Shown here: positions 12,159 through 50,747 of the stretch, one piece after another
How positions within the stretch are numbered: position 1 is the stretch's first letter
Layout of the letters: every line of letters starts with the position of its first letter
From: Siniperca chuatsi
Taxonomy: Eukaryota > Chordata > Actinopteri > Centrarchiformes > Sinipercidae
Direction of reading: 5' to 3'
DNA: 64,000 nucleotides
Assembly (NCBI RefSeq): GCF_020085105.1
Contig: NC_058045.1
Span: 10,061,833-10,125,832 of the forward strand
Position numbers and translations under genes: made by a program
The notes under the pieces: model-generated
What the model was told of the DNA's origin: nothing
Seen by the model: the letters and a program-made list of their open reading frames with translations, nothing else
Databases searched by the model: none

Positions 12159-15100
12159 ATGCAAGGCCACAGGAGACAGGTAGGTGATCTTATTCATACC
12201 AATACATATCGATACACAATGGAGCTGTTTTGGCCAAGCTACTACTTTAAGCTTCTGTTATGCTGCCATAGGCCTGCTGTCTTTAACATGACTACCAATC
12301 CTGCCCTTGTCAGACTAAATAGCTCCAACAGAAGCTCATTCCAGTGCAGTCCAGTACAAGACCCATCCTTACGCAAATCAAGACTAGACTACATAGCAAT
12401 GCTTTAATCTGAATTAGGATTGAATGGGATGTATGTACTTCCACTGGTGTCATAATGTTCAGATTGTATTTCTGCGTCTGCCACACCTTCACTGTTAGGC
12501 TAAATCTAAGCTAAAGTAGACTGCTCTGTTAAGTGAATAGCATGGATTGGCATGACGTGAGAGCACATCTACATACATACCATGCTATTCAGACAGGTTA
12601 GATTAACCCTCTTCACTGACAGTCCTCCAAGGTGAGTCAGGATCCAACCCAACATCAGCACAGTGGCATTCACTGACACACCCCCACTACATAGTTAGAC
12701 AGGATTCTTTAGTACACGTTGACCTTTCTGCAGATTTTCACAAGCTTATTAGTACATATCAGTATGATGATCAAATCAAATGATGCCTTATAGTAAAATC
12801 CGCAGTATATCACGCTTTCACTTGTGATGTGTACATTTGCCATAATTGTGTGGATGACTTTTCCTTGTATTATTTTGTTGTGTAGCCCAGTATTGAACTA
12901 CTGGAATTAATGGGAGTGGTAAGAGAGAATGGCAGTGAACAGACATCACTTCCTCCCGTGGTAAGAATTTATAATGTGTCCTCGTTAACAACATGCTAAC
13001 TAGTCCTGGCCACCATAATTCATAGGTTAAGATTGATCCATATACTGACTGAAAGTCTGACTTTGGCATATCATTTTTGTCACACAGCACACTCCACTGT
13101 CGTATGACTACGTCCTGGTTGCCAAAACAATTGATAACCAGGAGAGAGAGGCTTTCAAGAAGCAAACAGAATACATTGAAGAATTGAAAAAAAAGAACAT
13201 GAAAGTCACAGTATGTGTTTAATTAAACAACGATTTTCTTTACTCTTTCGTTTCTTCAACACTCCTGGGTGTGTTTCAAAGGTCATGTGATTCATTCATT
13301 TACCTCATCTTTATTTGTTTCTGTTAGGAAATTATAGATGATGATCTTGTCTTCTACGGGATTCAAGCGCCTAAAGAAATTTTTGAGAAGTACAGGTATC
13401 TGCTCAAAGTGTCTGATGCTTGTAATTGGAGCTCGGATCAGAACATTGTACCGCTCAGCACCAGGTAAAACATGTTGCCCTAGCTATTTTTGACATTTTA
13501 AACAGGCACAGATGCTGTTTGAAGTGTCTGCGATTGTTATGTGCTCCATATGTTGCAAATGTACTTGTTTTTTGTGCAAATAATCTCTAAAGCATATAAA
13601 TACCATTTATTTTTGCAAATTTGTGATATGGAGATGAAATCCTACTCTTTGTGCATGTATGAATGTGATATTCTAAATGATCTCTAAGCACAGCTGTTCT
13701 TTATCATTACTAAAAGGCTAATTTTCAAAGGCTCCATAAAAATTTGACTGAACTAATGAAGTTTTGAAGTCTCGCTTTATAAGTTTAGCTTTATGAGTGA
13801 TACTTGTCCGTGTTTCAGGATAAGGATTGTCCACTTCATCTTGAATCACACCCCTCTCCATTCAGGAGGTGAGAAAGACTTACTGTGTTTACAATCCTCC
13901 TCAGGTAACCGGACACCTAATCTTTATTCTTATTTTTCTCACCTGTTTTCCTTCCCAGAGAGTTTGCGGGATCTTATGAAGATGAATGTTTTTGAGGCAA
14001 GGTTCTGCCTGCATGAGGTAAAAATCCAAGCATACAATATAAGCCTTGTCCTTTTGACAGCATCTATGATTTATCACAATCTGTTACAGATTGCAATATT
14101 GTCAACATATCTGGCCTGATAGTTGCGTTATTACCAGGACTTGGACAGGAACTGCAGATTAAACAGTCAACTTGTGCCTTAATTTTTGTATGAATAAAGA
14201 ATGAAAACAGTAGACAGGAATAAATGTAGTCATGCATGAGACCTGACCTCAACATTTTTTTTAAGGTCAGATGTGAATGATACGATTGGACCCACACATC
14301 CTCATGTTAAAGATAGTAACACTATTGTCTACTGATAAATCTCTTGTTTTCATGTGGCCGCTAAAGTGTTTTGCTTTTCTTAAGAGCTTCTAAAATTATG
14401 AAGTGAAACTTGGCAGTGGCCTTCCAAAACAATACGTCGCTGCCAAAACAGTATTTGTTCACAGAGACGCTATGCACGTCATATAAATGTAGTGAGTCAT
14501 TCAACGCTGGGACTAAGTGGGCCTGCATGTGAGCATACATTGATACATATGTGTACATATGTGTACACATGTTTACTGTTTACTTTATAACACTGTGGGA
14601 GGTGAAGACATTGCCAGGAAATTAAAATATAAATACATTTCCAAAGCTTATTCAAAATATGAGGCAGCATTAATTTTGGATGATTTTAATTGGATATGAA
14701 AGCTAGTAAAATCAGTTAAAATTGCCAGTAGATTATATTTTTACATTATAAGCTTCTGTTTGCAGTTTGACTGTATGCTGTGTCAGCCAATATGTATGAA
14801 CTTCTTCATATTGGTGATTTCCTTAGATTTTTTTGTGCTTCTGCTTTTCAGAAAAAGAAACAGAGAGAACTGAAGGAGAGCTGGGCACGATGGACAGCCT
14901 GTCTCCAAGGGCAACCCATAACTGCTGTCAGGTTTGGAAAGCAACACAACAGCCTATTCATTACTATGTTTTTTTTTTTTACAGGTGCAGTTATTGCAGC
15001 GTTATTGTTTTCCATGTCATCCTACTGTGAAGTAGGTTCAAGTGTTAACAAGACAACAGCAAACATGTCACTACCTACGCAGGATGCAGGCATTGTTTGG

Positions 15101-15781
15101 ACCCATTATTTAAAATTATGTACAGTACTTAAAGCTGGTAGAGTTGTTGTCTTTGTCTTTACATTCAGTCCAAACAGCAGAACACAATGCAAACATGCAT
15201 CACGTTTCCAATTTTAAGTAAAAGAAATATATTATATGTGTAAGCTTCATGTCAATTCATGTTAGCTGTGAGAAACTTTCAGCCTTTTATTATAGCACCC
15301 ACATTAGGCCTATCAGCACCCACTGTACATCATCGCTCCACGTTTTGTCAAAGTCAGCCAAGTGCTTGTTGTCCTCATAAGTGTTTTTATTTTGTAATAC
15401 CAGAAGGCTAATCACCCACATGGAAAAAAAATCTATGAGAATTTATGTTTTAAAATGTTCAACTTATAAACTTTATATATGAACATACAGTGTTTCTGTT
15501 AGTGTTACTTGATAAAAGTCAGTTTCTATAGATTTCATACATTATAGTTTAACAGTATAATTTTGCAAATGTTGGTTTAGTACCACATGCTTTTATATGA
15601 GTACTATTTACACTATTATATAAGTATAATGTATCAAATCTGTATGAAATTGGTTGCAAACATCATTGTATTTTCATAAACAATGTTTATAAACTGCAAA
15701 TGTGTAATGTTTGTATATAAAATTTTTCTACAGGCAATGATAAGTGCATATCCCCACCTCATAAGTTATGGAATTTTCTAC

Positions 15782-15830
<49 letters not shown>

Positions 15831-18800
15831 CTCATGTCAGGAACTACTTCGGGGAGAAGGTGGCCTTGTACTACCTGTGGTTGGGCTGGTACACGTATCT
15901 GCTCATCCCGCCTGCTATCATTGGGATCATAGTCTTCCTTTATGGCCTTGCCTTCTTCAACAGCTCACCCCTCATGTAAGTTTTTCCATGACGCCACAGT
16001 ATCTGTGTCATAACAGAGCATTAGCACTGTAATAAATAAAGTGCTTATTGTGTTGTAGAAAGGAGGTTTGTGAGGCTGACACGGTCATGTGTCCACTTTG
16101 TGACAAGAGATGCAAAGTGTGGCAGCTCTCCGACACCTGCACATATGCCAAGGTACATCAGTGCATTTACTGCAGACAGCTAAATGGTGTACCTGTCTGT
16201 TTGTGCTCACTGCTGGTCTCGTCTGTTTCCAGGTGAGCCTGCTGTTCGATAATAATGGCACAGTGCTCTTTGCGATGTTCATGGCAGTGTGGGGTGAGTT
16301 CTGTGTTTCTTTATGACATAATTATTCTTGTGTTGATAGAAATAATCATTTTCAATATTCCTGTTTAAGATAGAATAGTGTGATTTATCACAGTCATATT
16401 TCCTGCAGATGCAGTTTAGCCTCATAGCCATTAAAACCCACACAATATTTAATAAAAATAATTGAAAATCAGGGTGCAGAACGCTATACAGGACAACTTG
16501 TGCAAACAAGTCTTTTATCTGCCTCAAATTTATTTTATCCAACTGCCTGGATGTTTTTATGATCACTGAGACATGCACTGCCAGCGAGATGCCACATCAC
16601 TGAGAGAACCTACTCATCTTGGCTACTCACGTTTTAATCAGCCCGAGCCATCTGGCCGTGGGGTTTGTCAAGCAGTCATCTAAAAGAACATCTAATTGCG
16701 CTTTCATTGCCATATTCAGCTTTTAGCACCTCTGTGTTTTTGTGAATTTTTAAATGTTTACTGTTTGCTGTCAGAACTCTTCTCATATCAAATTCATACC
16801 TGTTGTAGAAAATAAGGATTCCGGCAAAATGTCGATTTCTTGAGTGGCGTTTCTTAGCACAGCTGTGGGCAGAGTACATTTAACTAGAACAGCCACTGCA
16901 GTCTGCCAAGAAAAAGGTGATTTCATGAGTATATCAGAGGAAGTGTGTGAGGGAGGGGGGAGATAAAGAAAGAGAAAGAATACATCAAGGACAGAAAAGT
17001 GGAACATTGATATTGCAGGACAAAATGTGCCCAGCTGAATGTACGTCCCTACACAACACCTGTTTAAAAAAACATGTCAAAAACAAAAGGTAATATGCTA
17101 TAATTTGGGGCTGGAGCTCACACGATGCAATATCATCAGTGAAGCAGTTTACAGTAAGACCACAAAAGTAGGGATCAGTTCCTGAGTCTATTTTTAACTA
17201 AAGCTTTTATGTGCTAAACCCAACCCAAACTATATATAAGTTGTCTTACTTCCCAAAACCTAAACACAGCCCCCATCTTTGTAACTGTAACAGTAGTTTT
17301 TGTGACTGGCCCTGTTTCAGTATGCCATGACCAAAAGAAAATATGTGGGTATACGTCAAAATTAAAGTTTTTCGTAAGATGTTGAACCTCAAATGCAGGC
17401 ATGTCGATATTTTCATACATCCAGTGAAGATGAATGCAAAACTGCTACCAAATATCCCAAAAGTGGCAAAAATTATTAACACCACAGTGGATCTATGTTT
17501 TCAAAAACTGTCACTGTGGTTCGGTTATGTTGTTATATTATATTTTGTTGTTACAGTAGGCTTTATGAACTCATATAAATCCCTGGTCTTCACAGCAACA
17601 CTGTTTTTGGAGTTCTGGAAGAGACATCGGGCTTCCTATGTGTGCGAATGGAAAGTGTCTGATTGGTGTGAGGAAGAGGTATGATCAGATCATTACATCC
17701 CATTTCAGTAATACCAGGTCAGTGATCATTGGAATTCATGGCTGTGTGTTTATTTTCTATTATGTCTAATAACTGTAGGAGGAACTGATCCTGGAAATTG
17801 TGAACAACGCAAACTGTGAACCAAAAAAATATAAGCACTCCTATCTGCGCAGCACTGTGGTTTTGATCTGTGTCACAGCAATGGTGGGTGACTTATCATT
17901 TTTACACTCTTCATATATAGTATTTAAAGGGCTTATAGATCTTTAGAGTTCAGCTTAAAGTAAGAATCAGGTTGAAGTTGTGTAAGATTCAGGTTTAGGC
18001 ATGCACAGTAGTTGAGGTTAGAATTAAGGGCTGCAAAAAGATGTAGTTAACAGTGGCCCTCACAAGTATAGTGATACAAGTGAGTATTTTTGTGTTTCCA
18101 CAGATATTGGTGATCATTGGCCTGACACATGCCTTGGTGGTGTTCAGGGTGATAGCAGCAGTGCTCTTGGCCGAGGGATCATGGGAGTTCCTAAGCAACC
18201 ACTCCAACAGCGGAGCGATGATGCTGGGGGCCGTCCTCCATTACCTCATCATCACTGTCATGACACGGGTATGCAGTTCTCTAAATGTGCATCTCTGTTG
18301 CCTTTTTTTCTCTGTGACTCTGACCATGTCTTTGTCTTTGCAGATCAACAGGATTGTAGCCATGAAGCTCTGTGAAATAGGTATTATTTACTAATTATTT
18401 TTCACTTTTATATGGTACCAAATTTTAAATAGATGCTGTTACACTCATATCCCACTCATGTTTCCTGGAAAAATTAAAGATTAGCTTTAAAACATCCTAC
18501 TTTTAAAATATAATTTAGGATTAGAAAACATTAAATGAGCAGTTATTTGAATAGTCAATAACAGGTTTACAGTTGTCAGAGTGGTGGGCAGTGAGAACAA
18601 ATGCAGGGAGGCTGAAGTAGGAAGGCAGGTAATCAGACAGGAAGCAGGTCAGACACACAGATAACAGGTTCAGGCAGGAAAGTAGTGTCTGGAGCTGTCC
18701 TCTATACTTTGGCCCAAATCCAGTGTCCACTCTTACAGACACAGATTTGTCTGCAAGGGCTCAGGGCTGTCTCAATGAGAAATTGGAAAGTGCATGAGGC

Positions 18801-21800
18801 CTCTCTCATGGACTTTTTAACCCCTTTCTACAGACATTTTCCCAATAGTCTTGGGAGCATTCCTTATTTTAAAAACAACAGAAGGGGGAAACCCAAAATC
18901 TTTTTTTTTTTTTTTTAAAGTTTACATATACATAACAGCAGTGTCTTTATGAACAAACAGCTTTCATGGAGAAGCGTGGACATTGGAACTGGGGTGCCAT
19001 ATGCATTGATTCAGGAAATGAAGGGTAGTTGTAAAGACACGTGATAGCTCAGGTGATATTCAGAGGAGGGAAACTCACTGAGGGAGACTAGAGGGAAGGT
19101 GAGAAATGACAGGATGTAAACTGTTTCAGAACATACAGTAACAGTAGGAACGGAAAGAGAGAAAGAGTCTGAGGCTGAAGAGGTAGAAGAGGGAGGGAGT
19201 GCAGGAATCATCATGAAAATATGGGCTGTTATGAGGGCCCCTGCGTTAAGACCCTGGTCTGTTGATCTTGTCATGTAGAGCAAAGGTTCCCAACCTGGGG
19301 GTCAGAACCCCCAAAGGGTCATAAGACAAATCTGAAGCTTCGCAAGATGAATAACAAGTTGGGGGGAAAGTCTAATTTTATCTATTTTAATGTGAAATAC
19401 TGGAGAGTTTTAGCTCCTCAGGCCTCTAAAAACGACCCAAATGAAACAATCTGAGAAGGGAACATCGCACTTTGGACTACTCACTATGCAGCAACAAGTG
19501 GCAAGGGGTCATGAGGAGACATTTCTTCAATTTAAAGGGTCAAGCCAAAAAGGATGTGACCCAGTGGTACAGAGTTCATCTTAGCCTCTCTACGTGTCAT
19601 TTGCTTGGGGTGCATGGTATATTTTTGCCTTGGACCCATTAGTGACTTAATAGACCTTTTCCACAACTTGTCATGGCAAGAGAAGCACAGGTGTAATTAA
19701 TAACTAATTAGCTAATGATCGCTCTGTTCGTCTAAAGTGTCCCACGTCAGTGAGGCGCATGCCCAATATCAGGGCCCTGGAACTGGCACGCCTAACTTTC
19801 TGCTATGACATGCTTGTCTGTGTAAAAACAGTCTTTTTGGCCATTGTGTCGTGCAGGGAGCCAGTCTAGTCCAGCTGTGATGTGTTGATTGCAGTTTCTA
19901 AAACCTCCCTGAAGAAACTGAAGATTTAAAAAAAAAAAACAAAAAAAAAACCAATAACTTCAGGTTTGAACAATCCAAAGTATATCTTAATAATGTGTGG
20001 ATCAACATCAAATAATTCAGATACAATGTAAATAGAGGTAATAATATAATAGGTGAAATGAAATTCTATAGTAGGACTTCTCTCAAGTGTGTGAGATTGT
20101 GCCATCCATTGACCAAATAGTGAACTGCATGAACACTGACATGAAGTATGTCTTCACCAGAGAAAACAAGATCATTTGCTGCCACAGAGAAGAATTTCAC
20201 AGTCAAGATGTTCACCTTCCAGTTCTTCACCTATTTCTCCTCCCTCTTCTACGTAGCCTTTTTTCTTGGCAGGTAAGAATGAGAACGAGTGGACTCTGCT
20301 AGGGCTGGCTGATAACTCAATATTCACATTTTGCGACTTTTAGTGGTGTCATATATTGTATAATAATATGTTTATTGATATAATTTCAAACATATCACCC
20401 AGCTCTAGACTCCAAGCCCGCACAGCAAATGTCATAACCTGAAGGACTAATGTCCAAATGAAAGGAGCTGATTGTCCTTACTTATTAACGCCCATTGTCA
20501 TAACCTGATGGGCTTGTATAACTAATGACATGTTTTTGTAACATACATGACAGGATAAATGGCCATCCTGGTGGTTATGTCCGAATTGCAGGGAAGTGGA
20601 GGCTAGAGGAAGTGAGTAACATAAATATTTATCCCATTTAAATGTCCATTTTTAAGTAAAAATTGCTATTTCACATTCGAATATTGTATCTGATTGCATT
20701 CCAAACATTTCACCTTCCCCTGTATAGTGTCATCCTAGTGGATGTCTCACAGACCTGTTCATCCAAATGGCGATCATAATGGTACTCAAGCAAACCATCA
20801 GCAATGTCTTTGAGTTCACTGGCCCGTAAGTATAAATCAGATTTGTGATTGTAAACTGTACATGTGCGCTGTATAATCCACTTTATTTACGTTGTCTCTT
20901 GTTTGCATCAGTTGGCTCTGCAGGTGGTTGAAGAGAAGAAGGACCCAGAAGCTACAGAGGAAATGTGCCCACTGCTACCTGAAAGATGAATCAGAGGCCA
21001 AACACAGAGCTGAACTGTGTGATAACTGCAAGCTTCGAGACTGGCTCAGCAACTACCGTCTCAATGATGTTGACTCCTTCAGCCTGTTCAATGAGTTTCT
21101 GGAGATGGGTATGAACTCTGCTGAATGCTTTTACAAAAAAAACAGTAGACACTAGACAAATACTGGACTGATTTTGACAAATCATCTTTTTCTTTGCTCT
21201 CTCCTTAGTGATCCAGTTCAGCTTCACCACCATATTTGTGGCAGCATTTCCTCTTGCTCCTCTGCTAGCCCTCATTAATAATGTAATTGAGATACGCTTG
21301 GATGCCATTAAAATGGTCACTCTGGAGCGCAGACTGGTTCCCAAGAAAACCAACGACATTGGTGAGGGTCACATTTGAACTAAGAAGGAATTTGTTAACT
21401 CAGTAAAATGTTGTTTGCCTCTTTATACTGTAGATAAAATTCTCCTCACGTCAATGTTTCCTTTCCTCAGGTGTGTGGATAGACGTGTTGGAGGCTATTG
21501 GTGTCTTAGCTGTCATTGCGAATGGGCTGGTCATCGGTGTATCTTCAGACTTCATCCCTCGATTGGTGTACCGTTTCCGCTATGGCCCGTGTGCCAACGG
21601 CACAGCAACAGATATCGAGTGAGAACATGCATTCTTCTAGAAAATGCTTATGTTCTGTCATGTCGTGTGCAACACTCACCTTAAATAAATCCTTCTATTT
21701 TTCAAGCTGCATGGTTGGCTACATCAACAACTCTCTCTCCATTGCACGAATGGGTGACCAGAACATACTCAACGAGTTTTCAGCGAATCAGATGATCACT

Positions 21801-23675
21801 CCTAGTGGCTTGAATGTCTCTTACTGCAGGTTTGTTCTCTTTTAATCTTATTTGTCTTCCACAGCTGAAGAGTTATTTAACTGGCACAATTCTGACATTT
21901 AGGTTGGGAAAAACCAAAGTCAAAACATACAATTTGAGTAACAACAGAGTCGAAAGCACCACCAGTGTTAATAACTGTTCAGAGTTCACACTCAGATGTT
22001 CTGTTGTTATCCTGGTAGTATTGCACTGTTACCGTTCCTGTAAGTACCTCAGGTAATAGAACTGCTATATAAATAAAGTTTACATTCTCCTTTAAAAATG
22101 GGTGGCCATCACTACAGCTGGTACCCACAATCATCTACTGTGTGTTGATAAGGGCGATAACATCTGCGTTCTGGTCTGTTTTTCTTCACAGCTATAAAGA
22201 CTACAGGAGCAACGAGGACTACAGTTTTACCCCACAGTTCTGGCTAATTTTAGCTGTGCGCTTTGCATTTGTCATCCTGTTTGAGGTAGGCCTTGACCAA
22301 ACAAGAAACCACTCACCACTTTTTCTTACAATGATTTCTTTTAGCAGTTTTTTTTTTGTACTGTAGCACCTAACACAACACCAAAATCCCCCAAATCCTC
22401 CCAGCTCACTGTTTGTCTGTTTTGAAACTCGCATGATGTCACAGATAAGTTTCAGAACGGTGAGCTGGGCTATAAGTAATCAGGGAGTGTTATCATTAAC
22501 AAAACCATATTTTCACAGATTACATTTTCCTCTATGCTTGCAGCACGTTGTCGTCATATGCAAATTCATTGCAGCCTGGTTTGTACCGAGCGCTCCCATG
22601 CAGGTCAAGAATGATAGACTCTTTGATAAACTCAACAGACTAAAAGAGGAACTCAGGTGAGTCTCAAATAATATGTAGATAGACTGGCGTGGCAGCTGGT
22701 TGCCAAAAAAAGTACAATCTTGCTCATTCATTTATACATTGCATCCCATTTCAGTAATACCAGGTCAGTGAAATTCATGGCTGTGTATTTTTTTTCTATT
22801 ATATATAACTTTAGGAGGAACTGATCCTGGAAATTGTGAGCAATGCAAACTGTGAACCAAAAATATATGAGCATTCCTATCTGCACAGCACACAATGGTG
22901 GGAAAATAAAAAAGAGAGCACTGGATTGGTACTCGGTAATGGAATCGGTATGAGGAGAGAAAAAGTAGGATCGGTGCATCTCTAGCCCAAACTGCTTACT
23001 TATTTCCCTGTCAAAAGTCTGCCTATCTTGTGCTTTACATGTTGTTTTGGTGTCTGAAAAACTCTAGCTAAGCTGAATCTTCTTTAATGAATCACATTCA
23101 CAGACCTTTTTCACAGCAGACTTGTCAGAGCAGGAAAAACTAGTCAAAATGTCTGCCATGAAAAAGGTCTATTCAATTTTAGTTTCACTCCCTTTGTCAT
23201 ATCACCTCCCGGCAATGCCTGTTTGGGAACCACTGCATTAAAACAAGAAAATTCACCCTAACCGTGAAATTCTATCCCATTGTTTTAGCACTTGCATGTG
23301 ACAGTGTGATTTTCCTCACAATTTCTCAAATGAAAGCAAATGAATGGCTATTCATGATACACAGTCAGCATTACTCTTCTTGACTCTTCATGAATTAATT
23401 AAAGAGATATACATTGAAAAATGAATATTCCACCCAAATTTCATGGTACTTTAATTTTTAACTGAATCCTAATCATCTAAATGATGACTCATAAATACAA
23501 ATGCAGCATTTGTGGTTTGTAGCTCTAATTATGTTTTTATTATATGATTGTACCAGATACAACATTTTGAAGTGTGTTTTTAAGATGTGCTTTGTGTTGT
23601 GTTGTGACCACTTTGACATATATATGCAACTAACCAATCCTTGCTTTTATTTCTTACAGTTCATTTAAAGCGTGA
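12159..23675 (+). CDS. ano9: Anoctamin-9 (TMEM16J), complete
   Basis: Coding exons: 12159-12179, 12886-12960, 13088-13210, 13328-13464, 13819-13868, 13959-14017, 14852-14931, 15841-15975, 16059-16152, 16233-16293, 17596-17678, 17779-17883, 18104-18268, 18344-18380, 20161-20272, 20554-20611, 20728-20825, 20912-21108, 21209-21361, 21471-21618, 21707-21829, 22192-22285, 22544-22656 and 23660-23675. The phase-consistent sum is 2337 bases, 778 codons, against about 782 in human ANO9. Start MQG and the segments [30 protein letters not shown] and RINGHPGGY match ANO9. Residues 1-180 are the cytoplasmic domain; about 185-760 hold the transmembrane bundle. Acidic residues expected at the TMEM16 calcium sites are present: E494, E559, E562, E591 and D595. 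ANO9 is a calcium-responsive channel/scramblase family member of epithelia. The last exon adds only S-F-K-A. Confidence 0.95.
15785..15829 (+). repeat. (TG)n microsatellite next to an ano9 3' splice site
   Basis: About 22 uninterrupted TG units end 11 bases before the acceptor of the ano9 exon at 15841-15975. They occupy the usual branchpoint-to-pyrimidine-tract zone. Confidence 0.97.
18381..20160 (+). other. ano9 intron 14, repeat-bearing
   Basis: This long intron holds a poly-T tract (18900-18916), a hAT-like element (19282-19560), a poly-A stretch (19928-19951), and near 19651 a fragment resembling the short hairpin element at 23102-23170. No additional coding exon is needed: the flanking exons join in phase as CEI-EKTRSF. 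Confidence 0.6.
19282..19560 (+). mobile_element. hAT-like nonautonomous element, copy 1
   Basis: It begins AAGGTTCCCAACCTGGGGGT, similar to the CAGTGGTTCCCAACC terminus of Charlie/hAT-type elements. It shares an internal block (AATGAAACAATCTGAGAAG) with copies at 57732-58040 and, inverted, at 62709-63030. The right end is not sharply defined. Confidence 0.55.
20299..20408. mobile_element. Short TIR element (MITE-like) in ano9 intron
   Basis: The ends are imperfect inverted repeats: CTAGGGCTGGCTGATA on the left and TATCACCCAGCTCTAG on the right. They enclose A+T-rich DNA. The ends resemble the GGGCTGGGCGATA motif common in fish repeats. No coding capacity. Confidence 0.5.
22742..22897 (+). 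pseudogene. Decayed duplicate of ano9 exon 12 with its upstream intron flank
   Basis: 22815-22897 copies the ano9 exon at 17779-17883, and 22742-22814 copies the intron sequence just before it (17691-17778), including the CAGTAATACCAGGTCAGTG block. The copy keeps an AG acceptor and the ATG-GTGGG donor. It lost 22 bases of the exon between CAGCAC and CAATG, so it is 83 bases long and frame-shifting instead of 105 and frame-neutral. Point changes such as AAC to AGC and CGC to CAC have also accumulated. It lies in the last ano9 intron, about 5 kb from its source. Inclusion in mRNA would break the C-terminus, so it is probably silent. Confidence 0.9.
23102..23170. repeat. 69-base hairpin element
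   Basis: The arms AGACCTTTTTCACAGCAGAC (23102-23121) and GTCTGCCATGAAAAAGGTCT (23151-23170) are inverted copies with two mismatches. A fragment with the same AGACCTTTT start occurs near 19651 in another ano9 intron. This suggests a small dispersed foldback repeat. Confidence 0.6.
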
Positions 23676-26071: not shown

Positions 26072-29000
26072 ATGGCTGTGATTTTAGTCGCTTTCATATT
26101 GGTGTGCTTTGTTGAATGGAACAAGACTTTTCTCGCAGTCGGTAAGGATGTAACAAAACTTTACTAATAAAACGTTATGTACTTGATTTTACTCAGATAT
26201 GATAGGTTTGCACCTTATTTGGGAACTCCATTGTTAAATTCACAGAATTAGTTGATAGCTGTAGGATTCACCTTATTATTTTTTGGGTATATTTGTCCAT
26301 TTAAAACTATTAGTCACAGTCAGATTTACGGCATGCTGGATGGGTAAATACCAGGTCAATGCACATGTGGTCATTGTGTACAGGGTCACAGTATCTGTCA
26401 CGCAGTCACATGCTGTTGCCTGGCAACATGAGGACAAGACCCGAACTTCGGACCCGGATGTGTGTCCCTCTCAAATAAAACAAAGGGAAGTCAAAGAGGA
26501 ACCAGAGAGGGCAGTTGTGTGGCTTATTTTTGGTTTTGGTCGTAGTCACGATGAGCGCATGCGCCGTATATGTTGACGAACAGGTCCAGGCAGAAAAGGC
26601 CAGTTCTCATTAGTTAAGTTGTCTTCGATGCATTTTAAAGCTGTCCCGGCAGAGGTTAAATTAGAATAGGTCTCCGTCTGCATTGAACATGTCCTCAAAC
26701 AGAAAAGAAGAGTCAGTGTTTTTGTAATTTTTTTTTATCTAAGTCAGCAAAACACCACTTTGCTCAGAGTCTGCCAGGGTGAAAGAGTAAACAAGTTCAC
26801 TTTCATGCACCATTAGACACTTACTCTTTGCCAAAAGCTACACTAAAGCTGAACAGTCTTCTGAAGCCCCACAGAGTGTATGCAAACTGTTTCCAAAGTG
26901 GTTCCTCAAAAAACAAAGCTGATTTTAATATGACTTGGCTATGACATGACTGACACATTTATTACAGTTTACAATTATGTCATTATTAAAATCTAGGCAA
27001 GGTCATGGCAAGTTGGTTTTATTGCCAAATCAATCCCTGTCCTCATGTTACCTTACATAAAAAACGATTCCAATGATTTCCACGCAGTGAGGTATAGAGA
27101 TTTTTAATTTGGCAAGAAGAGAGCCCTGGTATGGCATTGGTACTCCCGTGTCCTTGAGTGGAGGGATCAGAATCGTTTTTTAGACAGAAGAAGTTGGATT
27201 CTGTTGCATCTCTAATGTAAAGATGAGTGTGTAAACTCCCTCCGTCTCTATTTGTAGCTCAGACTTGTGTGGATGAGAGCAGGTTTAAGGAGCAGGTGCT
27301 CTACGTGGGGCAGCAGGGGCCTCCATATCGGCTGAACTGCCCTCTGGAGCTTGTTCAGACCCAGAGCTCCCCGCAGCTCAAGCTTACCTGGCAGAAGGAC
27401 TGTGAGCAGCTCCTCGCCCAGGAAGGGAAGACCTACCTGGAGTTTAGCAGCCTCAGCTTGAAAGACCAAGGGAATTACACCTGTGTGCAACAAGGCAACA
27501 GCACAGCCTCATTCACTGTGCGTCTCATAGTTAAAGGTAAGTATTATTTCCATAAGTGTTGTGAAGTCATCTCAAACCTGATACTGTAATTGTGTGGCTC
27601 TCGCTGTAAGCTATTATTTGTCCCTGCAGTAAACTTAGAGTTTGTATGGGGGGTTGAAGGGGGTGGTTGAACGGATTGGCTACGCCTGCAAGGAGGCATT
27701 TTGTTTCAGCGTGCCGTCCAGCAGCAGTGCGCTCCCAGGCTGTACCTGGCAGCGCACATGAAGGCCTCTGTTGTCTGGAGCTCCTGCAGTGAACACAGAT
27801 AACAGTGGTATGGCTTTACACAGAGTCCCAGTGCTCCAAAGCGCCAGAATTTAAACCTAATGAGGGTCTGACCAGCCTCTGGAGGAATGTGGGATCCACT
27901 GTGAAACTGAACTGCACTGCTCTCCTCCTCTGGGACCCAAGAGAGGAGCAATGTGACACCACGCTGCAGTGGAGTAAAGATGGCCAACCCCTCACCAATC
28001 ACACACTTCACAAGCAGAATACCTCCTCATGGTGATTTGAAGCTTTTAAAATACCAGTTTTCCATTAATAATCAAGTGGAAGTATTTGAGAGTGCAAGAA
28101 AGATCAAGTTTTCTGTCGTACTTATCAGGTCTCCTGTTGTCGGCCAGCTGATGGTAAACAGTCTGCTGGTGATCACACTGAGAGAGCTGGACGATTTTGG
28201 GCTCTACAGCTGCACAGTGAGGAACATTTCCTCTGACTTCAGCCTACAGAATTCAAGTAAGACAACTAAAGATACCAACCTATAATATGCTGGGTCTCCT
28301 ATAGTCTGTCCTGCATCTTTTGTTATATTTCTAAAAAGATAGCCCACATAAAATTAAAAAAGAGACACAAGCACACAAATGTAACAACGTAGATTGGAGA
28401 AAACCGTGAAAGGCAAGACTCCATAAATAAAGAGGAGCACCAGTTATGCCAAGTATCTACATCAAAAATCATATGAAAGTATATTGTAGACGTGATCGGT
28501 GTATATCAAAACTATTACAAGGAAGTCAGCCAGCTCCACACGCTGTGTTAACTGTCTAGGGATTTTACAACTTTAAAATAGATACATACCTCCTTTATTA
28601 CATACAGCATTTCAACTGTGATACTGTTTATGCCACACACACTGATACATCCAGTCTGTATAATGTTACAGTGTCTTGGCAGGGAGCCTGGCCCAGCATG
28701 TAATATGTCAGCACCAGATAATCCTTGTGATTCACAACATGAATTGATTCTGATTAATGTTACTTCTCCCTGAATTAACTGTGCATTGAAAATGTGTACA
28801 GTTTGCTATTCTCTTCATTTTTGTAGTTGCAAGGACCCAGATGTACAGACACACTCTACTGACAGAATCCGTATTGTGTATAAAGTATTGGTTGATTATT
28901 TTATGCTTCTTTTTCTTTCTTTCTTTTCTCTGTGTGTGCACAGACGGCCCCAGCCACACAGCTGCTGTTATTGCAGCCATCATCCTCCTCCTCTTCCTCA

Positions 29001-32000
29001 CTGTAGCTGCTGTTGTGTACTCCAGGTGTCACCTGAACATCAAACTCTGGTACAGGAACTCCTACGGAGAATATGAACTCAGTGGTGAGGCTTCTTTTGA
29101 AGTGATATGAGGTTGCTATACTCGTGTATAAGACTGTAGTATTAACATTGCTGGTATGTGTCTCCATGTCTTCAGATGGCAAATTATATGATGCCTATGT
29201 TTCCTATGTGAACAATGATCATGACAGGAAGTTTGTCAACTTTATTCTCAAACCTCACCTGGAGAATAAAAATGCGTACAAGGTGCTCCTCAATGACAAT
29301 GATATCCTACCTGGCTCAGGTAAGCTTTCTGTGTGTAGTATTAAAGGGAACGCGGGATATATTGAATCCATTGTTTATGCAGTTTTTGTTGTTTTTTTAC
29401 AATCCAGGATTTTCAGATTCTGCTGTCACAATTATTACCTGTTATTCTGAGGCCTGTTTTGCCCAATTTGAAACATGCAAGCTGCAATTTGCAAGATGAC
29501 ATCATTTTCTCTCATGTTAATTTTGAGTTGTTTCATAAATCAAAACAAATGCCATACTTGAGACTTCACGAGAATGTAAGAGGCCCGTTGGATTTGCAAT
29601 CTACAATTTGCAAGCAACAATCACTTGTGTGACGTGACGTATAAGCAGTGCTCGCAAATCCTTTTTGTGAAACAGGCCCCTGGGTAACAAATTTTAATGT
29701 AAAGCTGCTAATTTTTTAACAATGCATAACAATATGAAGTGTCTCCAGAACCTTCTGCAGAGCTGCTAATGAACATGAGTCGCTCTCGGCGTCTGATCGT
29801 GTTGCTCTCTTATGCTTACCTTGAGCAGGACTGGTGCTCCAATAACTTCAGGTCAGACTCACACAGACGAATTTAATGTAGAAACAACACTGTTCAAACA
29901 GCACTTTATATATTTATAAAACTGAGTAAAACTACTGTGCCATCATTACAACATACCACTTGAGGTCAGTGTTGCTGCTGTATAGTGCAGTGTCCTATCA
30001 CAACTCATGACTGAAGCTGTGTGTGTTTTCAGACAGGGCCTTCTGCACATATTGGAGATATGTCAGCGGCCCATCTTCATCATGTTGGAGGGTCAGTCCA
30101 AACGCATGAGGCCTGAGATCAAGCAGCAGCTCACTGAGCACCAGCACCGCATCACCATACTCACCTGGAGGCACAACTCTGTGGTAAGATCCACAGTAAT
30201 AACCTACCAGTGCTCTCATGATAAAGCAAAAGCTTTCTGAGCAAACTTATAATAATGTAATTTTAAACACCATTATGTTTCTGTTTCGACAAAAAACAAA
30301 GGTAAATTGGATTTCAGCCAACTCACATGGAAAGAGTATATTATTATGTAAATACATATATACATATGTGCAAAGTATCTATAATGTTTTATAGTGTCTG
30401 CGCTCTGTCTGCCCTCTATTATAGTGAAATAATCATGTGAATAGACTGTGTCTTACACAACATTTGTTTCTGCTTTAAATTTTAAGTACTTTTCTAAAAC
30501 AAATATTTATGACTAAATAAGCAACAATCATAGTTTAAGTTCAGGAAAAAAACATCCTGAGATATTATTTTTTATTTGTAGGCGGTTTAACATGCAAAAA
30601 CTCAACTGATCTGTTTCCTTATAACTGCGGGTGTGGTTTGATCAGATTTGTTTGACTGGAAAGTGTGACTATTATCACATTTTGATTCAAATGTTGCTAA
30701 ATCCTGATTGGTGCACTAAAGTATGTGACAACACCTTTCTCCAACCGAACCCAGTTCAGTGCAAACCACTGAGAGGAGCTCAAAAAAACCAGCACAGGCA
30801 GAAATCTGTGAAAAAACCAACAACAAATTATGCAATTATAGATATTTCTGAGTGTAGAAATGTGTTTCAATGTAATTAAATAAATATACATATAAATTAA
30901 AATTAGAAATGTACAGTATATATATATATATTATGATACATGCAAGGCTTCTACAGTTCAGTTCAGTTTGACTCGTGGTGCGAGCGTGGTGTAATGTGTC
31001 GTGGTGTCCACAGACTCCCTCCTCAGTCTTCTGGAAGGAGCTGGCCTTAGCGATGCCTCGCAAAGTCGTCTTCCACAGGGAGTCTGCAGGCGACCCTCAG
31101 ACTGTGCTACAAGATGACAAGGACCCCATGCTGACCCTCGACGCCGACTACCTGGACTGCCGCTCGGACACTGACCCTGCTGGAGATCTGGGTAAGAACC
31201 GTCACAGGACTAGAAAAGTCCTCAAGTAATAATGTTAGGTTCACTCTTCACAGAAAGATGCATATGCAAAAAGTTTTGCATAAATGCAAGGTGACTGTTC
31301 GTATTTGAAAATTTGAAATCCAATACCTAGACAACATACAAGGCACATATGCTCATGTTTAACAACCATCTGGTACTGACTCTGATCCAGAGATGTAAAT
31401 GCTTGTCAACTGTTTGGTATTTCTTGTACATTGTCACATGAGAATTAAAATATAAAGAGTTCTAGCCTATATGCAAGTCTCAACCTGCTAAAGACTCTGT
31501 TCCCTTTTTCAACACACAGTGTGCAGTTGAATCCTATTGTACTTGACCCAGTTTGAATCAATAAACACGGACTCAACTACAGTTAATCATTAACTTCAAT
31601 ACTAGGACATCATATCAGATGATGAGCTTGCACATATTTTCTATACCAGCTTGTCTGTGATGTTTTATATCAAGACATACCAAGCAGACATGAGCTCAGC
31701 ATTTGCTTACTTGCAGAGAGTAACATCACTCTTATATGATTGTCCATACTGTAATTTCATTATGTTGGTCTATTCTGTACACTCGTCTATTACGTGTCTT
31801 TCCGTCCTCTGTTGCTCTTCCTGAGGTTTCTTCCATTTTTTCTCCGTTAAAAGGTTTTTTTTGGGGTAGTTTCTGGGATATATAAATAAAACTGACTTGA
31901 CTTATATTCTTCACTTAAATATGAAGCTACAGCCAGTTAGCTTAACTTAGCACACAGACTAAAAACAGGTGAGGTGCTGGTAGACAGCTAGCCTGCCTCT

Positions 32001-32441
32001 TTAGACAGAGGCAGGCTAGCTGTTTCCCCCTGTTTCCAGTCTTTATGCTAAGCTATGATAACCGGCTGTCGGCTGTAGCTTCATAATTGACAGACAGATA
32101 TGAGAGTGGTATCAATCTTTTCATCTAACTTTCGGCAAGAAATCATATAAGCATATCATAAAATGTCGAACTACTCCTTTAATCCCTCTTTGTACTACAG
32201 CAGTGAAAAATATAATGCATTTGCATTGATTTGGAATACATTTCTCACCTTTTGTCTTTCTGTTGCAGGGCTTCGCATCCCTGTGTACAAGGCTCTGGCC
32301 TGTAAAGCTCCTGTCCTCCCCGCTGCTCCCATCACTGTGGCTGAGCCCAAACCCTCGGACATTGACGTGTCCGACCTGGGATCACGCAACTATGGAGCCC
32401 GCTCAGACTTCTACTGCCTGGTCACTGAGGAGGACATTTGA
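26072..32441 (+). CDS. sigirr: SIGIRR-type IL-1 receptor relative with two Ig domains (teleost DIGIRR form)
   Basis: Coding exons: 26072-26141, 27258-27536, 27824-28031, 28129-28256, 28944-29084, 29176-29319, 29761-29851, 30033-30183, 31014-31191 and 32269-32441. They total 1563 bases, 520 codons. The signal peptide is residues 1 to about 24. Ig domain 1 (about 25-116) has Cys, Trp and DQGNYTC; Ig domain 2 (about 117-228) has LNCTA, LQWSKD and DFGLYSC. N-glycosylation sequons occur in both. One membrane helix lies at about 234-254. The TIR domain (about 279-425) has box 1 LYDAYVSY, the SRRLIVLLS strand and box 3 FWKEL. The tail [20 protein letters not shown] is almost identical to human SIGIRR. 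Human SIGIRR (410 residues) has one Ig domain. Teleost two-Ig members reported as DIGIRR damp IL-1 and LPS signalling. Neighbours ano9 and pkp3 match human SIGIRR. Confidence 0.93.
26142..27257 (+). other. sigirr intron 1
   Basis: It holds a RFX-type X-box, GTTGCCTGGCAAC at 26415-26427, and otherwise no recognised exon or repeat. The exon 1 to 2 junction is G|CT (Ala), just after the signal peptide. Confidence 0.4.
31920..32182. mobile_element. GCTAGCTGTTTCCCCCTG-family MITE, copy 1
   Basis: It lies in the last sigirr intron and runs from GAAGCTACAGCCAGTTAGCT to CGAACTACTCCTTTAA. It shares CTAGCTGTTTCCCCCTGTTT, TATGCTAAGCTA, GTGGTATCAATC and ACTCCTTTAA with copies at 38314-38816, 41007-41266 and (truncated) 63965-64000. 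It is partly self-complementary and noncoding. Confidence 0.75.
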
Positions 32442-38000: not shown

Positions 38001-41000
38001 AAGATTTCTGCCTCAGAGGGGGACTGCTGGATGCCTTCAGAGTTTCCGTCGCCTGACAGAGGGATGAGGATCCTCTCAGTCAGCTCAGGAAGTGTCTCCC
38101 TGGCCAGTTTCTCCTTCAGGTTGTCTTTGGATGAAAGGTTCCACAAGATACCTGCACATATACACAACAGGGGAGTAGTGTCAGCAAAACTGACATTTAT
38201 GACTCATTTTGCATAATGCTGTAGCTTCTTTAATGTTTCATTTCTTAACCTTGAGGTCAGGACTTTTGGACATTTTTAACTTCAGTCTTGGAGATGTTTT
38301 ACAGTCAGCTCAGTTTAAAGACATATTTCAGCATTTTGGGAAATACGCTTATTCGCTTTTTTGCCAAGAGTTAGATCAATACTGCTCTCATGTCTGTCTG
38401 TTCAGTATGAAGCTACAACCAGCAGCTTGTTAGCTTATCTTAGCATAAGGACAAGGGGGAAACAGCTAGCCAGGCTCTGTCCAAAGGTAACAAAAACTCT
38501 ACCAGCACTTCTAAAGTTTACTAATTAACACGTTATTCCTTGTTAGTTTAATCAGTACAAGAGGCTACAGTATTTACCAAATTATTTCTTGGCTAGGTGC
38601 AGTGACATCCTGGAGTTTTAAAGGTGCTGGGAGGCGGATTTAGTACTGCTGGACAGAGCCAGGCTAACCGTTTCCCCCTGTTTCCAGTCTTTGTGCTAAG
38701 CTAAGCTAAGCTAAGCTAACTGGCTGCTTGCTGTAGTATACAGACATGAAAGTGGTATCAATCTTCTCATCTAACTCTCAGCATGAAAGCAAGTAAGTGT
38801 TGAACTATTCCTTTAAGGATTCAATTGTCATACATGAGTTGAAACTATTCCAAAACACATATGAATGCTTTTCAAAACCTATAAGAGAAATTCAAAAAGG
38901 TAGTGAAGCTAAAACATTAGTTTGCACTACATATGTGGGTAAGATAAGACCTCTTTGTCACATTCTGGCAAACTAACCAGAAAAGGGTGCACAAGTACAG
39001 TTGCTCTGTTATTTATCACTTTCCCAATGTTTGTTACTGAACATGTGACACCGACTGAGTTTATTAGTGATCCAGCAGACATAAATCAAGCTGTCATGGC
39101 TCAAAGGGAGCGGCAGATATACTGTTGGGCTGCAAGCCCAGACAACTCCCATTCACTCCCTCTTCACACACCCTATAGAAAAGACTGCAGCTCCACCTCC
39201 TACTCTTTATGTAGTCAGACACACTACATGCCTTGCAAATCTCTACACTATAGAGTTGTAGTTGCAACATCCATTTTCTTAATTTTCAGTTAATTTTACG
39301 AGAGTATGACTGCCAGTTCCAAGACAACAGATAATTGTGAATTTGCAGATTTGCAGATTAATTTAAAAGAACGTGTGAGTCATGAGTCAACTGTAAACAA
39401 AACTTATTTAGACTTGAACACTGCAAGGCCAACAGACATGAATGTTGCTGTGTTTCTGTTGGTGTAAGGAAAAGACTGGTTCAAGCAACGTTTTTAATCA
39501 GCAATTGATTATGGTGATATTTTATATATGCATGCAAATTCATCTTCTTTGAAAATGTTAGATTCTGTGTACCATGTGGTGTTACAATTTCTCTGATTCT
39601 GGTTTCCGCACACATCATTGCAGTTTGTATGAGAAAGTCCTTATACAACCATAGAATGGAGCACTGGTACATTTTTCTTTATAAAGGCCATTTTACATGA
39701 ACTGCCTCCTTATTTATGTTCTCTACTGATTCTAAAAACTATCAGTAGTTGTAACCTTCGGTCATGTGGGTCTTTGGTGCAAGTGCTTTTAATGTTTTTG
39801 CACTCCATCTTGGTGTGAGCTACAGAGAACTAAACTAAACTTAAACCTTAAACTAAATTACTTTATTAGCATGGAAGATTATAAACACAGGATTAAGGAC
39901 TACTTGATCACAGAATGCACATTCCCTGTTACTGTGTGAAATTGTTATGCTGTTTGTTGTAACTCTTTACTGTTTTGTTTTAACTCTTCTGTTGTTTGTT
40001 TGTTTTTTGTGAAACTTTTTATGCTGCTGTCTTGCCCAGGACTTCCTTGTAAAAGAGATTCTGAATCTAAAAATGGGAATATTCCTGGTAAAATAAAGGT
40101 TAAAAACAAAGCAAAAACACTCTACTGAAATAATAACATTTCTCACATCTCTTTAAAAAATGTACTAATTCAAACTATGGTTTAGTTACAGTAAATGCTC
40201 GTAATCTGTGGATTCTTGTGAAAGTGTCTAGTTTCAGCTTGCCACCATCCTCCTATTTGTTTGCTGTGGAATGATATCAACTGCAAAGGCTACTGTTGGC
40301 TCAAAGAATATCAAAAGACGCCACTGCCAAGTTCATGTTGCATCAAAATATTGTGACTAACTAGTTTGCATTCATTTCTCCTTGAGGTAAAAGTCCAAAG
40401 TAAGCAGTCTGAGATCAACTCTCCTTGTTGTGTCATGTTTTTTATGTTAATGACTGAAATCAGGATTTTCCTACCAGTGATGTTTTTGCGGAGCTCATCA
40501 TCGGGCTCCCTAAGTGCCTCGACCAGCTGTGGGATGCCGCCCTCCTCGATCAGGGCCACCTTGTTGTCCATATTCTCATAGATGAGGTTACGTGCGGCAC
40601 CAGTGGCATAACGCTGCACTTCCTGGTTGTCGGAGTTGAACAGCTTCACCAGCTCACCAATGCCCTTCAAGTGACGCACCTAAAGACGGGGTGACAAGAA
40701 AAAAAAGTTCTGCTTAGGATTTGTGCATTTCTTCTTTAATGTTTTGGTTTTCTCCTATGATTAGGTGATTCACGTTTTTTCCATTAGCTTAGAAACTAAA
40801 GAAATAAACAGAGTTCTGGACTATGGATTAAAGCCCCTCTTTTATGTGATTATAACTTCAAGTTTCTATCTGTAGAAAAATGGTCTCATTGCAGTCTCAT
40901 CCCATTCATCTGTGTGCCCAGGTTGCATCAGCGTGCATTGCTGTCAGCCTCAGTATCCTTTTTTTATACCACTACTAGGAGTTTTTCAAATACTGACATA

Positions 41001-44000
41001 GGGGCTTTAAAGGAATAGTTAAACATTTTGGGAAATACACTTATTCCTTTCATTAACGAGAGTTAGATGAGAAGATTCAACATCACTCTCCTGTATGGAA
41101 AATATTTCTGAGGTGCCGGGATGATTTTGTTACCAATGGACAGAGCCAAGCTAGCTGTTTCCCCCTGTCTCCAGGCTTTATATTAAGCTAAGCTAACCAT
41201 CTGCTGTCTGTAACTTCTTATTTAACGTTAAGTTTAGTTCCCAAAATGTCAACCTATTCCCTTTAATATAAAATCATCTGTATCTCTTTTCAGAAAACTC
41301 ATTTAAAGACAGACTCTAAACCAGCTCACAATCTAACTGATCGACTGAGCCGTCATAAAAGTGTGTCACATAAGATAAGTTAGATATGATAGAGTTTAAT
41401 CTCTTTTCTACGTCTGCCATTCAACACCTATATAGGGCAGAGTCCAGATACGTTTACAGCAATGACAAAAATTGAGCAACATGTGAAACAACTGGAGTTA
41501 CAGAATCTGTAGCTACTTCATGTCACCATAAATGGAGAAACATCCATCAATGGACGCCTATACTTGAAGGAAAACAATTTTCATGTCTGAGTTTCTCAGT
41601 AAGGGATTACAGAGAGGAAAGACCCAGAAGAATTCTAACCACAAGTTTAAACAGTCAAGTACCTCAATTTTGGCGTCGTTGTCATTGTAACACTCATGTT
41701 GAATGTAGGCGGCACCCAGGACCTGCAGTTCAGGGTCGGGCTCTCTCAGATGTTGCACTGCTGTGGGCATGTCCAAGGATGTGATCCTGCCGAAGGAGCA
41801 AATTAACAAATTCAACCAAAGAATCTAAAACATTTAATTATGTCATTACCCTGTTTTTGTGTATGGTAGCACAAAATATGTCTTTTGGATGTTTGAATGA
41901 AAAGCAACAGAGTAGCCACAATAATTATTCAAAGATGATTTGTTTCTTGTCTGCAAAATTCAGCTTGTTGAATTTCTTCCAAAATCACACAGTGGTCTGC
42001 AAACCACATGCTGTGGGATGTGTGAAATGCGAGGCTTGAAACTGAGCTGCCACACCCAAAACCAGTCCTGCCACTATGCAGCCATGTCCCAATCCACAGT
42101 TTGCATCACACACACTCCCTCACTAAAACCTCCTGACACATGAAAGTTGTGACGCCATCATACTGGTGTATAAAATTCACTGACAGTCATAAAAGGTCAA
42201 GTAAATGACTCCACCAGAATGACTAGAGCTGTTATCGCTGTCATTGAGAATTATAACCCAATTGAAGGATAAGGCAGGCCTTGTTCTGTATTTTTGTAAG
42301 ACAGTGCACATGGGATTGAATCAAAATAAAACCACAGTGCACATGCTCATCGTAATAGAGGGACACAAAAGTGTGGCTCATTGACGTGTTTTTAGTAGTT
42401 TTTATACAATGGAGGCACACAAGATTGGCTCAGAAGATTAAGCTACTGTATATCAGGCTTTGCCTACAAAGACAATATGTATTAGTAGGATAAGTTCATT
42501 GTTGGTTTTTGTCTTTTCTTTGAATTTGTTGACAATAGGAAAGTTATAGAATATCACCAGACTTATACTTTACTTTCCTCATATCAGTCAACATCAACGT
42601 GTACTCAGGTTGGTTCTTGAGGTTGATGAAATCTAACCAGTCAAATGTGAACAGAGACCTTTTTGCATGTATAGCCTACCATTAAACACTGAAGATCTGT
42701 CAGTAATAGTATGAGAATGAGAAACATCAATGTGAGCAGAAATAATGGGCGACTTTGTTAGTCATGTGAGCTTCTCACCCGCTGAGGTTGCCCATGCTGG
42801 CTCCCATGTCCATCTGCCCACCGTAGATGTCCATGCCCCTGCCAACACTATGCATGCTTTTGATTGACATGGCACGGGACAGGGTGCCCGGACGCTGCAT
42901 TAATATGGTCCCCTGGGAACCAGTGGACATTCCGGATGCGATGAACCCTGTGTCCACTCTGTCCCCCCCTCCACCATAGATGCTCCCACCTGAGGACGTC
43001 TGGTGCTGCAGGGTCCCAGACATGGAGCCCATGCTCATCCGGTTTCGGTTTGTAATCCTGCTGATGGTCCGGTGGGCTGGGCCTTTGTAGGAATGTTGCT
43101 GGATGATCTCCGCCTCTCCTCCTGTCATTCCTCCACCATGAGAAAGAGTGCTACTAAGAGATCGGCGTATGTTTGCCGGAAAGGTCATGGCGCCTCCTCC
43201 TTGCCTCACCTGGTTGGTGTAGCCGTTGATTGCACTCTGAGTGTACTGGCGGTTGAAGGTGGTGTCCCGGTCAGAGATCAAGCTGCAAGCATCGCTGCTA
43301 TCAACTATCCAGGGATTCACCTGCGCTGTGTGCTGCCGCACTGCGTGCATGGAGAAAGTCTCTGGGTCCATTCTGCTCTGGGACCTGGTATTCCCTTGGT
43401 AGCCGCCCATTCGCATGTCTTCTCGGTAAAAACTGCCACCACTAGTAACACTACCACCACCACCACCACCACCACCAACCCCTCCACCCCCGACACTGAT
43501 CCTGTGGAACTGGGCTATGTCTGGACCAGCAGACTGGCAGCTGAAGCCCGACCTCTGGGATACCCGTGGACCCTGAGGATGAAGAGAGGATCAACTGTTA
43601 CAATCAAATGTGTAACCAGAGTTACTCATTATGTTCTAGTGAACTGTATGTGTGGGTGAATTTGTTGTGAGTCACTGAACATTGACAAAATCTGATCACA
43701 GGGATGTGACTATCATTCAGGAAACAAAAGGTCATGCCCTAAGAATTTTTTGTCATATTAATTTCCATTTCTCATACAAAACATACAATCAATTTAGGAG
43801 AGGTCAGCTTTACTATTAACTCAAATATAAAATTCAAATTCAGGTCTCTCTTAAGCTCAGAGCTCAAACATCTGTGGCGCAAAGCCAGCATCTTCCTGTT
43901 GAATCACTAAAATGGAGGAATCTTGAGGGTGGATTTGAAAACCCTGAGCTGATTTCATAACAGCCTACTGTGAAATACCACACCTGCTGTGTCCTGGGCG

Positions 44001-49130: not shown

Positions 49131-49528
49131 TTTTAAAGCCGTGTAATTAGTCCAGTAGCTCTCATGCAACCCATGAAACCAAATAGCCATTATCTGCCCT
49201 CCACACTATCTCCACACTCTAGCATGCTTTCTACACTTGCCTGTACTTGCCCTCTTTTTTGACTCACAGGTGAGCTGGTCTTCTTTTAGATAGGAATCAC
49301 ACAGTGTGAGTCAGATTTCTGTCAGCTATTTATGATGAATTCTCCAGCAGAGCGTAGTATCTCATAACTGGATTACGAAATGTTTGTGAGCTTTTATTTT
49401 ATTGGAAAAGACCTGTAAGTGGCATAAATCTATCTCTGAATATTTTCTCTCACTATTAAGTTTTTTTAAAATTCCTGTTTTTTGTTCCCTGCATAACCTG
49501 AATTTATTTTTAACAGACGACCTGAAGA

Positions 49529-49795
49529 CAGTGGTGGGATGTAACTAGGTGCATTTACTCAAGTACTGTACTTAAGTACAATTTTGAGAATTGTACTTTA
49601 CTTGAGTGTTTCCATGTCATGCTACTTTATACTTATACAATTAAAAATATATAATTTTATTATATTATATTATCCCACTGTATCTATTTAAGTAACATTT
49701 TCAATGCAGGACTTTTTCTAGTGATGGATTATTGTTATATTGCAGTTTTGCTACTTTGACTTAAGTAAAGGATCTGAATACTTCGTCCACCGTTG
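49529..49795. mobile_element. CAGTGGTGG-ended MITE, copy A
   Basis: The ends CAGTGGTGGGATGTAACTAG and GAATACTTCGTCCACCGTTG are imperfect inverted repeats. Internal ACTCAAGTACTGTACTTAAG palindromes recur in copies B (50748-51309) and C (62062-63112). No coding capacity. Confidence 0.8.
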
Positions 49796-50310: not shown

Positions 50311-50747
50311 ATATTTGTTCAAGTGGGGCATGAATTGCTTTTATAAATGCATAAGTGTATTGTCTTTGTTGTGTATTTGTTTTTCTTGAGTACAAAAAAG
50401 CTATTTTAATGTATCTTCTTGGACCCTGTAGGCTTTTTAAATGTTAAAATATACTTTAATGTAACATTAAGTTGAATTTTTAATTTAATGTTACACTTTT
50501 AAAAAATGTAAGTTAAATACATTACAATTGTGTCCTATCAACATTAAAACACAAGCAAAGATCCATCTTGTAACAGGGTTAAACAGTGAAAGTGACAGTG
50601 CGGACAAACCAGGTAAAACAGCTGTCAGTCATTCAGCCCTGATTATAGTCAGTGGAGTCATATTTACATTAATAATGAGGTTAAATGTGACAAAGCTAAT
50701 CTCTTTATAGCCATAAAGCTATAATTCTTTTACAACACTGTTGTTTA

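Follow-up and report, generated by a model that had tools for sequence, protein, structure and literature searches.

Exon copies that lie in introns of their own gene are a known and common kind of duplication. In the part of its report considered here, Exonize names intronic matches of this sort possibly unannotated or degenerate exons (PMC12343006), and the corresponding part of a 2022 survey of tandem exons counts, for human exons, 4,027 targets in introns that lie outside both annotated exons and repeats (PMC9013439). Pack-TIRs form a second related group, in which a segment is flanked on both sides by the ends of one TIR transposon while its parent lies elsewhere and is not transposon-flanked. 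According to the portion of the Pack-TIR survey considered here, 56.9% of the elements analysed are found no more than 15 kb from the parent, and for most of these the distance is at most 5 kb; microhomology is present at a breakpoint in 67.6%, with a median of 2 bp; and single-copy Pack-TIRs are explained by transposition-independent gap filling (PMC8277862).

The ano9 gene of Siniperca chuatsi, located in the window (the whole stretch of 64,000 nucleotides that was analysed), carries a copy of its exon 12 within its last intron. Like the intronic exon duplications of the two surveys, it consists of an exon with flanking intron sequence copied into an intron of the same gene; unlike them, as far as the excerpted descriptions go, it is separated from its parent by 5 kb with 11 coding exons in between, is mismatched in phase and is fused to a transposon end (PMC12343006, PMC9013439). 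Single-copy Pack-TIRs resemble it in being single (here, among the matches listed), in lying about 5 kb away in cis, in being joined to a TIR transposon and in a possible short microhomology at the junction. They differ, in the account given by the part of the survey considered, in that the ano9 copy has the transposon on one side only and no convincing target-site duplication, and in that its gapped alignment, with 87% identity by blastn, falls under the survey's 90% BLAT cut-off (PMC8277862). Of the two defining features of a Pack-TIR, the locus thus shows a parent elsewhere that is not transposon-flanked (the source at 17691-17888), together with the right transposon end only. Nor do the two exons form a tandem mutually exclusive pair, being 5,036-5,046 bp apart and incompatible in phase. 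Whatever the route by which it arose, the copy is very probably a relic without function, left by a small duplication in cis, and appears to be unused.

Host gene and neighborhood

The coding span of ano9 covers positions 12159-23675 on the plus strand and comprises 24 coding exons encoding 778 aa, according to an exon model with a frame that is open to its TGA. Exon 12, the parent of the copy, is 105 bp long with phase 0-0 (17779-17883, plus strand). Exon 23, the upstream neighbor of the copy, occupies 22544-22656 (plus strand) and leaves phase 2, and the coding part of the last exon, exon 24, which supplies the residues SSFKA and the stop, occupies 23660-23675 on the same strand.

Pfam was applied to the assembled ano9 gene and to 20 open frames out of the 59 in the window that reach 95 aa. 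It identified the Anoctamin family PF04547 in the assembled 778-aa product (E 7.4e-143), whose best PDB chains are anoctamin-1 and anoctamin-6. Beside the anoctamin gene, SIGIRR-like frames at 27227-29447 on the plus strand include an Ig-domain frame (27227-27586) and a weak TIR-domain match below the Pfam curated cut-off (29106-29447), and a PKP3-like Arm-repeat frame lies on the minus strand at 40314-40679. Since SIGIRR, PKP3 and ANO9 are grouped together in one abstract (PMC13281847), these SIGIRR-like and PKP3-like neighbors support the name ano9, which an earlier sequence-only reading had already proposed and which rests on domain and neighborhood.

Extent and reality of the exon-12 duplicate

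The source segment, 17691-17888 on the plus strand, contains the last 88 bp of intron 11, exon 12 and the first 5 bp of intron 12. Its duplicate in the last intron of ano9 spans 22737-22902 on the same strand, with 154 of 166 aligned bases identical; the 12 mismatches comprise 7 in the 83 aligned exon bases and 5 in the 83 of flanking intron, and the copy lacks 7, 3 and 22 bases of the source in three gaps. The local alignment score of the two stretches as first proposed is 232, whereas the highest control scores are 29 (1000 single-base shuffles) and 30 (1962 pieces drawn at random from the window), and blastn returns E 6e-55 at 87% identity. Self-comparison of the window (E 1e-8, low-complexity filter on) yielded 10 repeat pairs; the exon-12 pair ranks first among them, and no other has both its arms within the ano9 coding span. 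Source and copy have the same orientation, with 11 other coding exons between them.

The duplication of exon 12 within ano9 is therefore real, with an exon resembling an intron of its own gene far above chance, as expected of a degenerate intronic exon duplication. The sequence-only reading was correct in describing a past intragenic duplication that later decayed and in locating the recurrence of exon 12 and its upstream intron flank; its limits are adjusted here, as the copy begins at 22737 rather than 22742 and the homology continues 5 bases beyond the pseudo-exon to 22902. Because the copy carries intron sequence, the duplication took place at the DNA level. A retro-copy of spliced mRNA was considered and ruled out, as 88 bp of intron 11 travelled along.

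Within the duplicate, an 83-bp pseudo-exon at 22815-22897 (plus strand) retains the AG of its acceptor and the GT of its donor, as indicated by the alignment and the splice-site scores, and the junctions 22656, 22815, 22897 and 23660 proposed earlier agree with the 24-exon coding model. Only 83 of the 105 bases of exon 12 align to the copy; the other 22 were lost, between 22891 and 22892. The earlier proposal that these bases were removed between short CAGCA repeats is borne out as regards the loss itself, but a clean CAGCA-to-CAGCA deletion does not account for it, as the repeats are 26 bases apart; the best 22-base placements of the deletion match 25 of 28 bases, with one of the three misses lying beyond the end of the homology.

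Genome search and the paralogous exon

A search of 718.8 Mb in 65 contigs with the exon-copy sequence listed three matches, namely the copy and the source themselves and an exon of a paralogous anoctamin gene, a count that is a lower bound since very common words were skipped. These matches are those of an intragenic exon duplication and not of a repeat dispersed genome-wide. It would thus take an almost negligible chance for the exon-12 copy to be a coincidental similarity, a dispersed repeat overlapping the exon or an assembly error: the first is contradicted by a score far above all controls, the second by the identity of the matches listed (at least three), and the third by 12 mismatches and three indels in 166 aligned bases, which look unlike a repeated read.

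The equivalent of exon 12 in a second anoctamin gene, at 38.09 Mb of contig 1, is matched over its full length with 77 of 105 bases identical. As this paralog keeps all 105 bases, the 22-base loss happened in the copy. When the paralog was used to polarise the 7 exon differences between copy and parent, four had changed on the copy (three of them at codon position 2), one favours a change in the parent or homoplasy, and two were uninformative. A second exon-12 copy was not found in the 27 kb fetched for the paralogous gene, a stretch that reaches about 8 kb past the exon-23 equivalent and in which the last exon of that gene was not located.

The second gene is itself ano9-like and extends over approximately 38,092,700-38,109,100 of contig 1 (L004-L006), with query residues 240-773 matched in the stretch fetched. 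It is perhaps a teleost duplicate.

A truncated transposon at the right flank

MITEs of the hAT-like type are characterized by short terminal inverted repeats, an 8-bp target-site duplication and a lack of coding capacity. The right flank of the exon copy, 22909-22984 on the plus strand, was matched by nhmmer to the terminal ~76 bp of a dispersed, apparently hAT-like element whose 5' part is absent. The exon copy joins directly to the inner part of the truncated MITE, giving the order intron, exon copy, MITE end and intron, a transposon fusion that the earlier reading had overlooked.

At 13 other places in the genome there are matches to the segment 22898-23000, and their right ends correspond to 22979-22987. 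A first nhmmer profile, built from 10 of these 13 matches, recovered 22909-22984 at E 6.5e-17, a value that is not wholly independent since the matches had been found with the right flank as query. It also detected a longer relative (26932-27214, E 3.9e-39), which, unlike the right-flank match, is independent of that query. Seven further pieces were considered for a second, fuller profile; four were included, and three (L043, L046 and L048) were left out for want of a clear 5' start. The fuller profile gave E 3.1e-19 for the right flank and E 9.3e-47 for 26932-27214; it placed the right-flank match out to 22995, because one untrimmed row (L045) had kept flanking bases. The family is large, with 386 first-look candidates, 40 of which were scored and matched. 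One relative (L015) is a complete 230-bp element with the 5' start TAGGGATGCACCGATCC, flanked by GTAGCAAT and GTGGCAAT, which are alike at 7 of 8 positions, an arrangement that resembles a hAT MITE. Further relatives are longer and reach about 370-385 bp.

The longer family member at 26932-27214 lies in the same window, just upstream of the SIGIRR-like frames.

Junction and left flank

The copy and the transposon meet at TGGG (22899-22902, plus strand), a possible 4-bp microhomology common to the source and several MITE members. It is present in L009, L015, L016 and L018 and absent in L008, L012 and L019, while no match to the pattern was obtained for L010, L011 and L013. In simulation, at least 4 shared bases occurred at random joints with a frequency of 0.020, to be read with the fact that the register was picked after looking. 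Breakpoint microhomology is common in Pack-TIRs and not required of them.

On the left side, 13 family members compared on both strands gave 26 pairwise scores, each below its own 60-shuffle maximum, and the MITE profile had no match in 22541-22760; the left flank itself (22657-22745) returned no other match in the genome search. No convincing 8-bp target-site duplication was found in three registers over 21301-22900: with at most one mismatch the only candidate is at 22295 (GACCAAAC), and with two mismatches there are several, including one at 22702, which precedes the copy by 35 bp; neither 22295 nor 22702 has a TIR behind it. Near the source (17691-17888), neither profile detected a MITE within the window. 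The link to the MITE is consequently one-sided, as neither left MITE sequence nor a convincing target-site duplication was found, and a later independent insertion followed by a deletion may account for it instead.

Phase, reading effect and splice sites

The intron that hosts the copy has phase 2 in the coding model, a mismatch with the phase 0-0 of exon 12. Insertion of either 105 or 83 bases between exons 23 and 24 consequently gives the same product, in which EELSSFKA-stop is replaced by EELRRN-stop, with the stop three codons into the insert; its distance to the last junction is 73 nt for the deleted copy and 95 nt for an intact 105-base exon. The earlier expectation that inclusion would replace the last residues is thus upheld. 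Its companion claim, that an exon neutral to the frame became a poison exon through the deletion, does not hold, as the phase-2 host gives the same stop codon for the intact exon. Silencing by the 22-base deletion was likewise dropped, since the new stop codon lies upstream of the deletion, which makes no coding difference. The stop on inclusion is due to the intron phase and not to the loss of 22 bases, and an exon of phase 0-0 placed in a phase-2 intron would therefore have been a poison exon from birth at this place. What decides whether a copy of this kind could be harmless is the phase of the exon and not its length.

Nonsense-mediated decay (NMD) is expected for stops located more than 50-55 nt upstream of the last junction. 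Since the predicted stop lies 73 nt before that junction, NMD would be expected if the spliceosome took the copy, which by its predicted inclusion would resemble known poison exons or NMD switch exons.

Splice sites were scored with a weight matrix built from the other introns of ano9. The acceptor scores 0.99 in the copy and 0.82 in the parent, the donor 4.73 and 4.75, respectively, and the sites of both are weak, in the lower part of the ano9 range. Scores equal to or above those of the copy are reached by 5 further GT among 53 scored and 13 further AG among 45 scored in the host intron, and by 197 of 2355 GT and 771 of 2571 AG in the window section 24500-63900. Because equal or better sites are so common in the same intron and window, the surviving acceptor and donor say little about use.

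Origin of the copy and competing explanations

The likeliest route, which has roughly an even chance of being the actual one, is that a break occurred in or beside a MITE which the last intron already contained, and was repaired. The gap would have been filled with DNA synthesized from the nearby exon as template, whereby about 198 bp (exon 12 with the end of intron 11) were copied 5 kb downstream in the same orientation; the 5' part of the MITE would have been lost during repair and the right end of the copy fused to the MITE interior, after which the exon copy would have decayed through substitutions and three indels. That the MITE was there first is suggested by divergence: 14 aligned MITE relatives show 8-17 differences from the column majority at 70-81 sites, compared with 12 of 166 between copy and parent, which would make the family older than the duplication. 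The spread may instead reflect old subfamilies, and the divergence of the fragment in the window depends on the alignment, with 17 of 81 in one and few mismatches by eye in the profile alignment. The opposite order is a serious but less probable alternative, in which a plain local duplication or insertion produced the copy, the MITE landed beside it later, and a deletion took the 5' part of the MITE together with the right end of the copy. This sequence of events yields the same final structure and competes with the repair route only, not with the view of the copy as a relic. Local duplication is not rare, since direct pairs of at least 100 bp without a match in other sampled chunks (six pairs) occur in 3 of 20 sampled 10-kb chunks; the alternative, however, needs an extra deletion that ends no more than 5 bp from the donor of the exon, and the MITE relatives appear more diverged than the copy is from its parent.

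Transport of the copy by a mobile, exon-capturing MITE, that is, a true transposing Pack-TIR, would explain why an exon copy is fused to a MITE terminus; it is nonetheless very unlikely, as the matches listed include no other genomic copy of the captured segment, the profile found no left terminus, no convincing target-site duplication is present, and the parent lies in cis, 5 kb away. Similarly improbable is a live poison exon whose occasional inclusion would send ano9 mRNA to decay and thereby tune its level. Acceptor and donor scores equal to those of the parent and a predicted stop 73 nt upstream of the last junction are what such an exon would offer, but GT and AG of equal or better score abound in the same intron and window, and the copy has decayed by substitutions and three indels. 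A related idea, to be given equally little credence, is that the copy has been kept as a poison cassette specific to the lineage, inclusion of which at a low level would couple the ano9 mRNA level to the splicing factors of exon 12, given that the splicing signals of the two are nearly identical. With repair at a pre-existing MITE as the preferred route, the locus would illustrate, on a small scale, how a break at a transposon in an intron could give rise to an exon copy in the same gene, leaving the general picture unchanged.

Local duplication rate and other repeats

The 20 sampled 10-kb chunks were taken at hand-picked positions on 9 contigs; the window was divided at 10-kb multiples, which kept the ano9 pair out of the count. 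Thirteen pairs of at least 100 bp at E 1e-10 were found in five of them; seven of these pairs, in three chunks (six direct and one inverted), were not matched elsewhere among the sampled chunks, and some of them may be uncommon repeats.

Other repeat pairs of the window involve 49528-49638 and 50747-50854, as well as 31917-32182, 38315-38797 and 41111-41226. Three pairs around 32 and 38 kb look dispersed, because they are also matched in two to three other sampled chunks. Just downstream of ano9, the segment 24393-24923 has a perfect inverted repeat with 30-bp arms separated by 471 bp and looks like a small TIR element.
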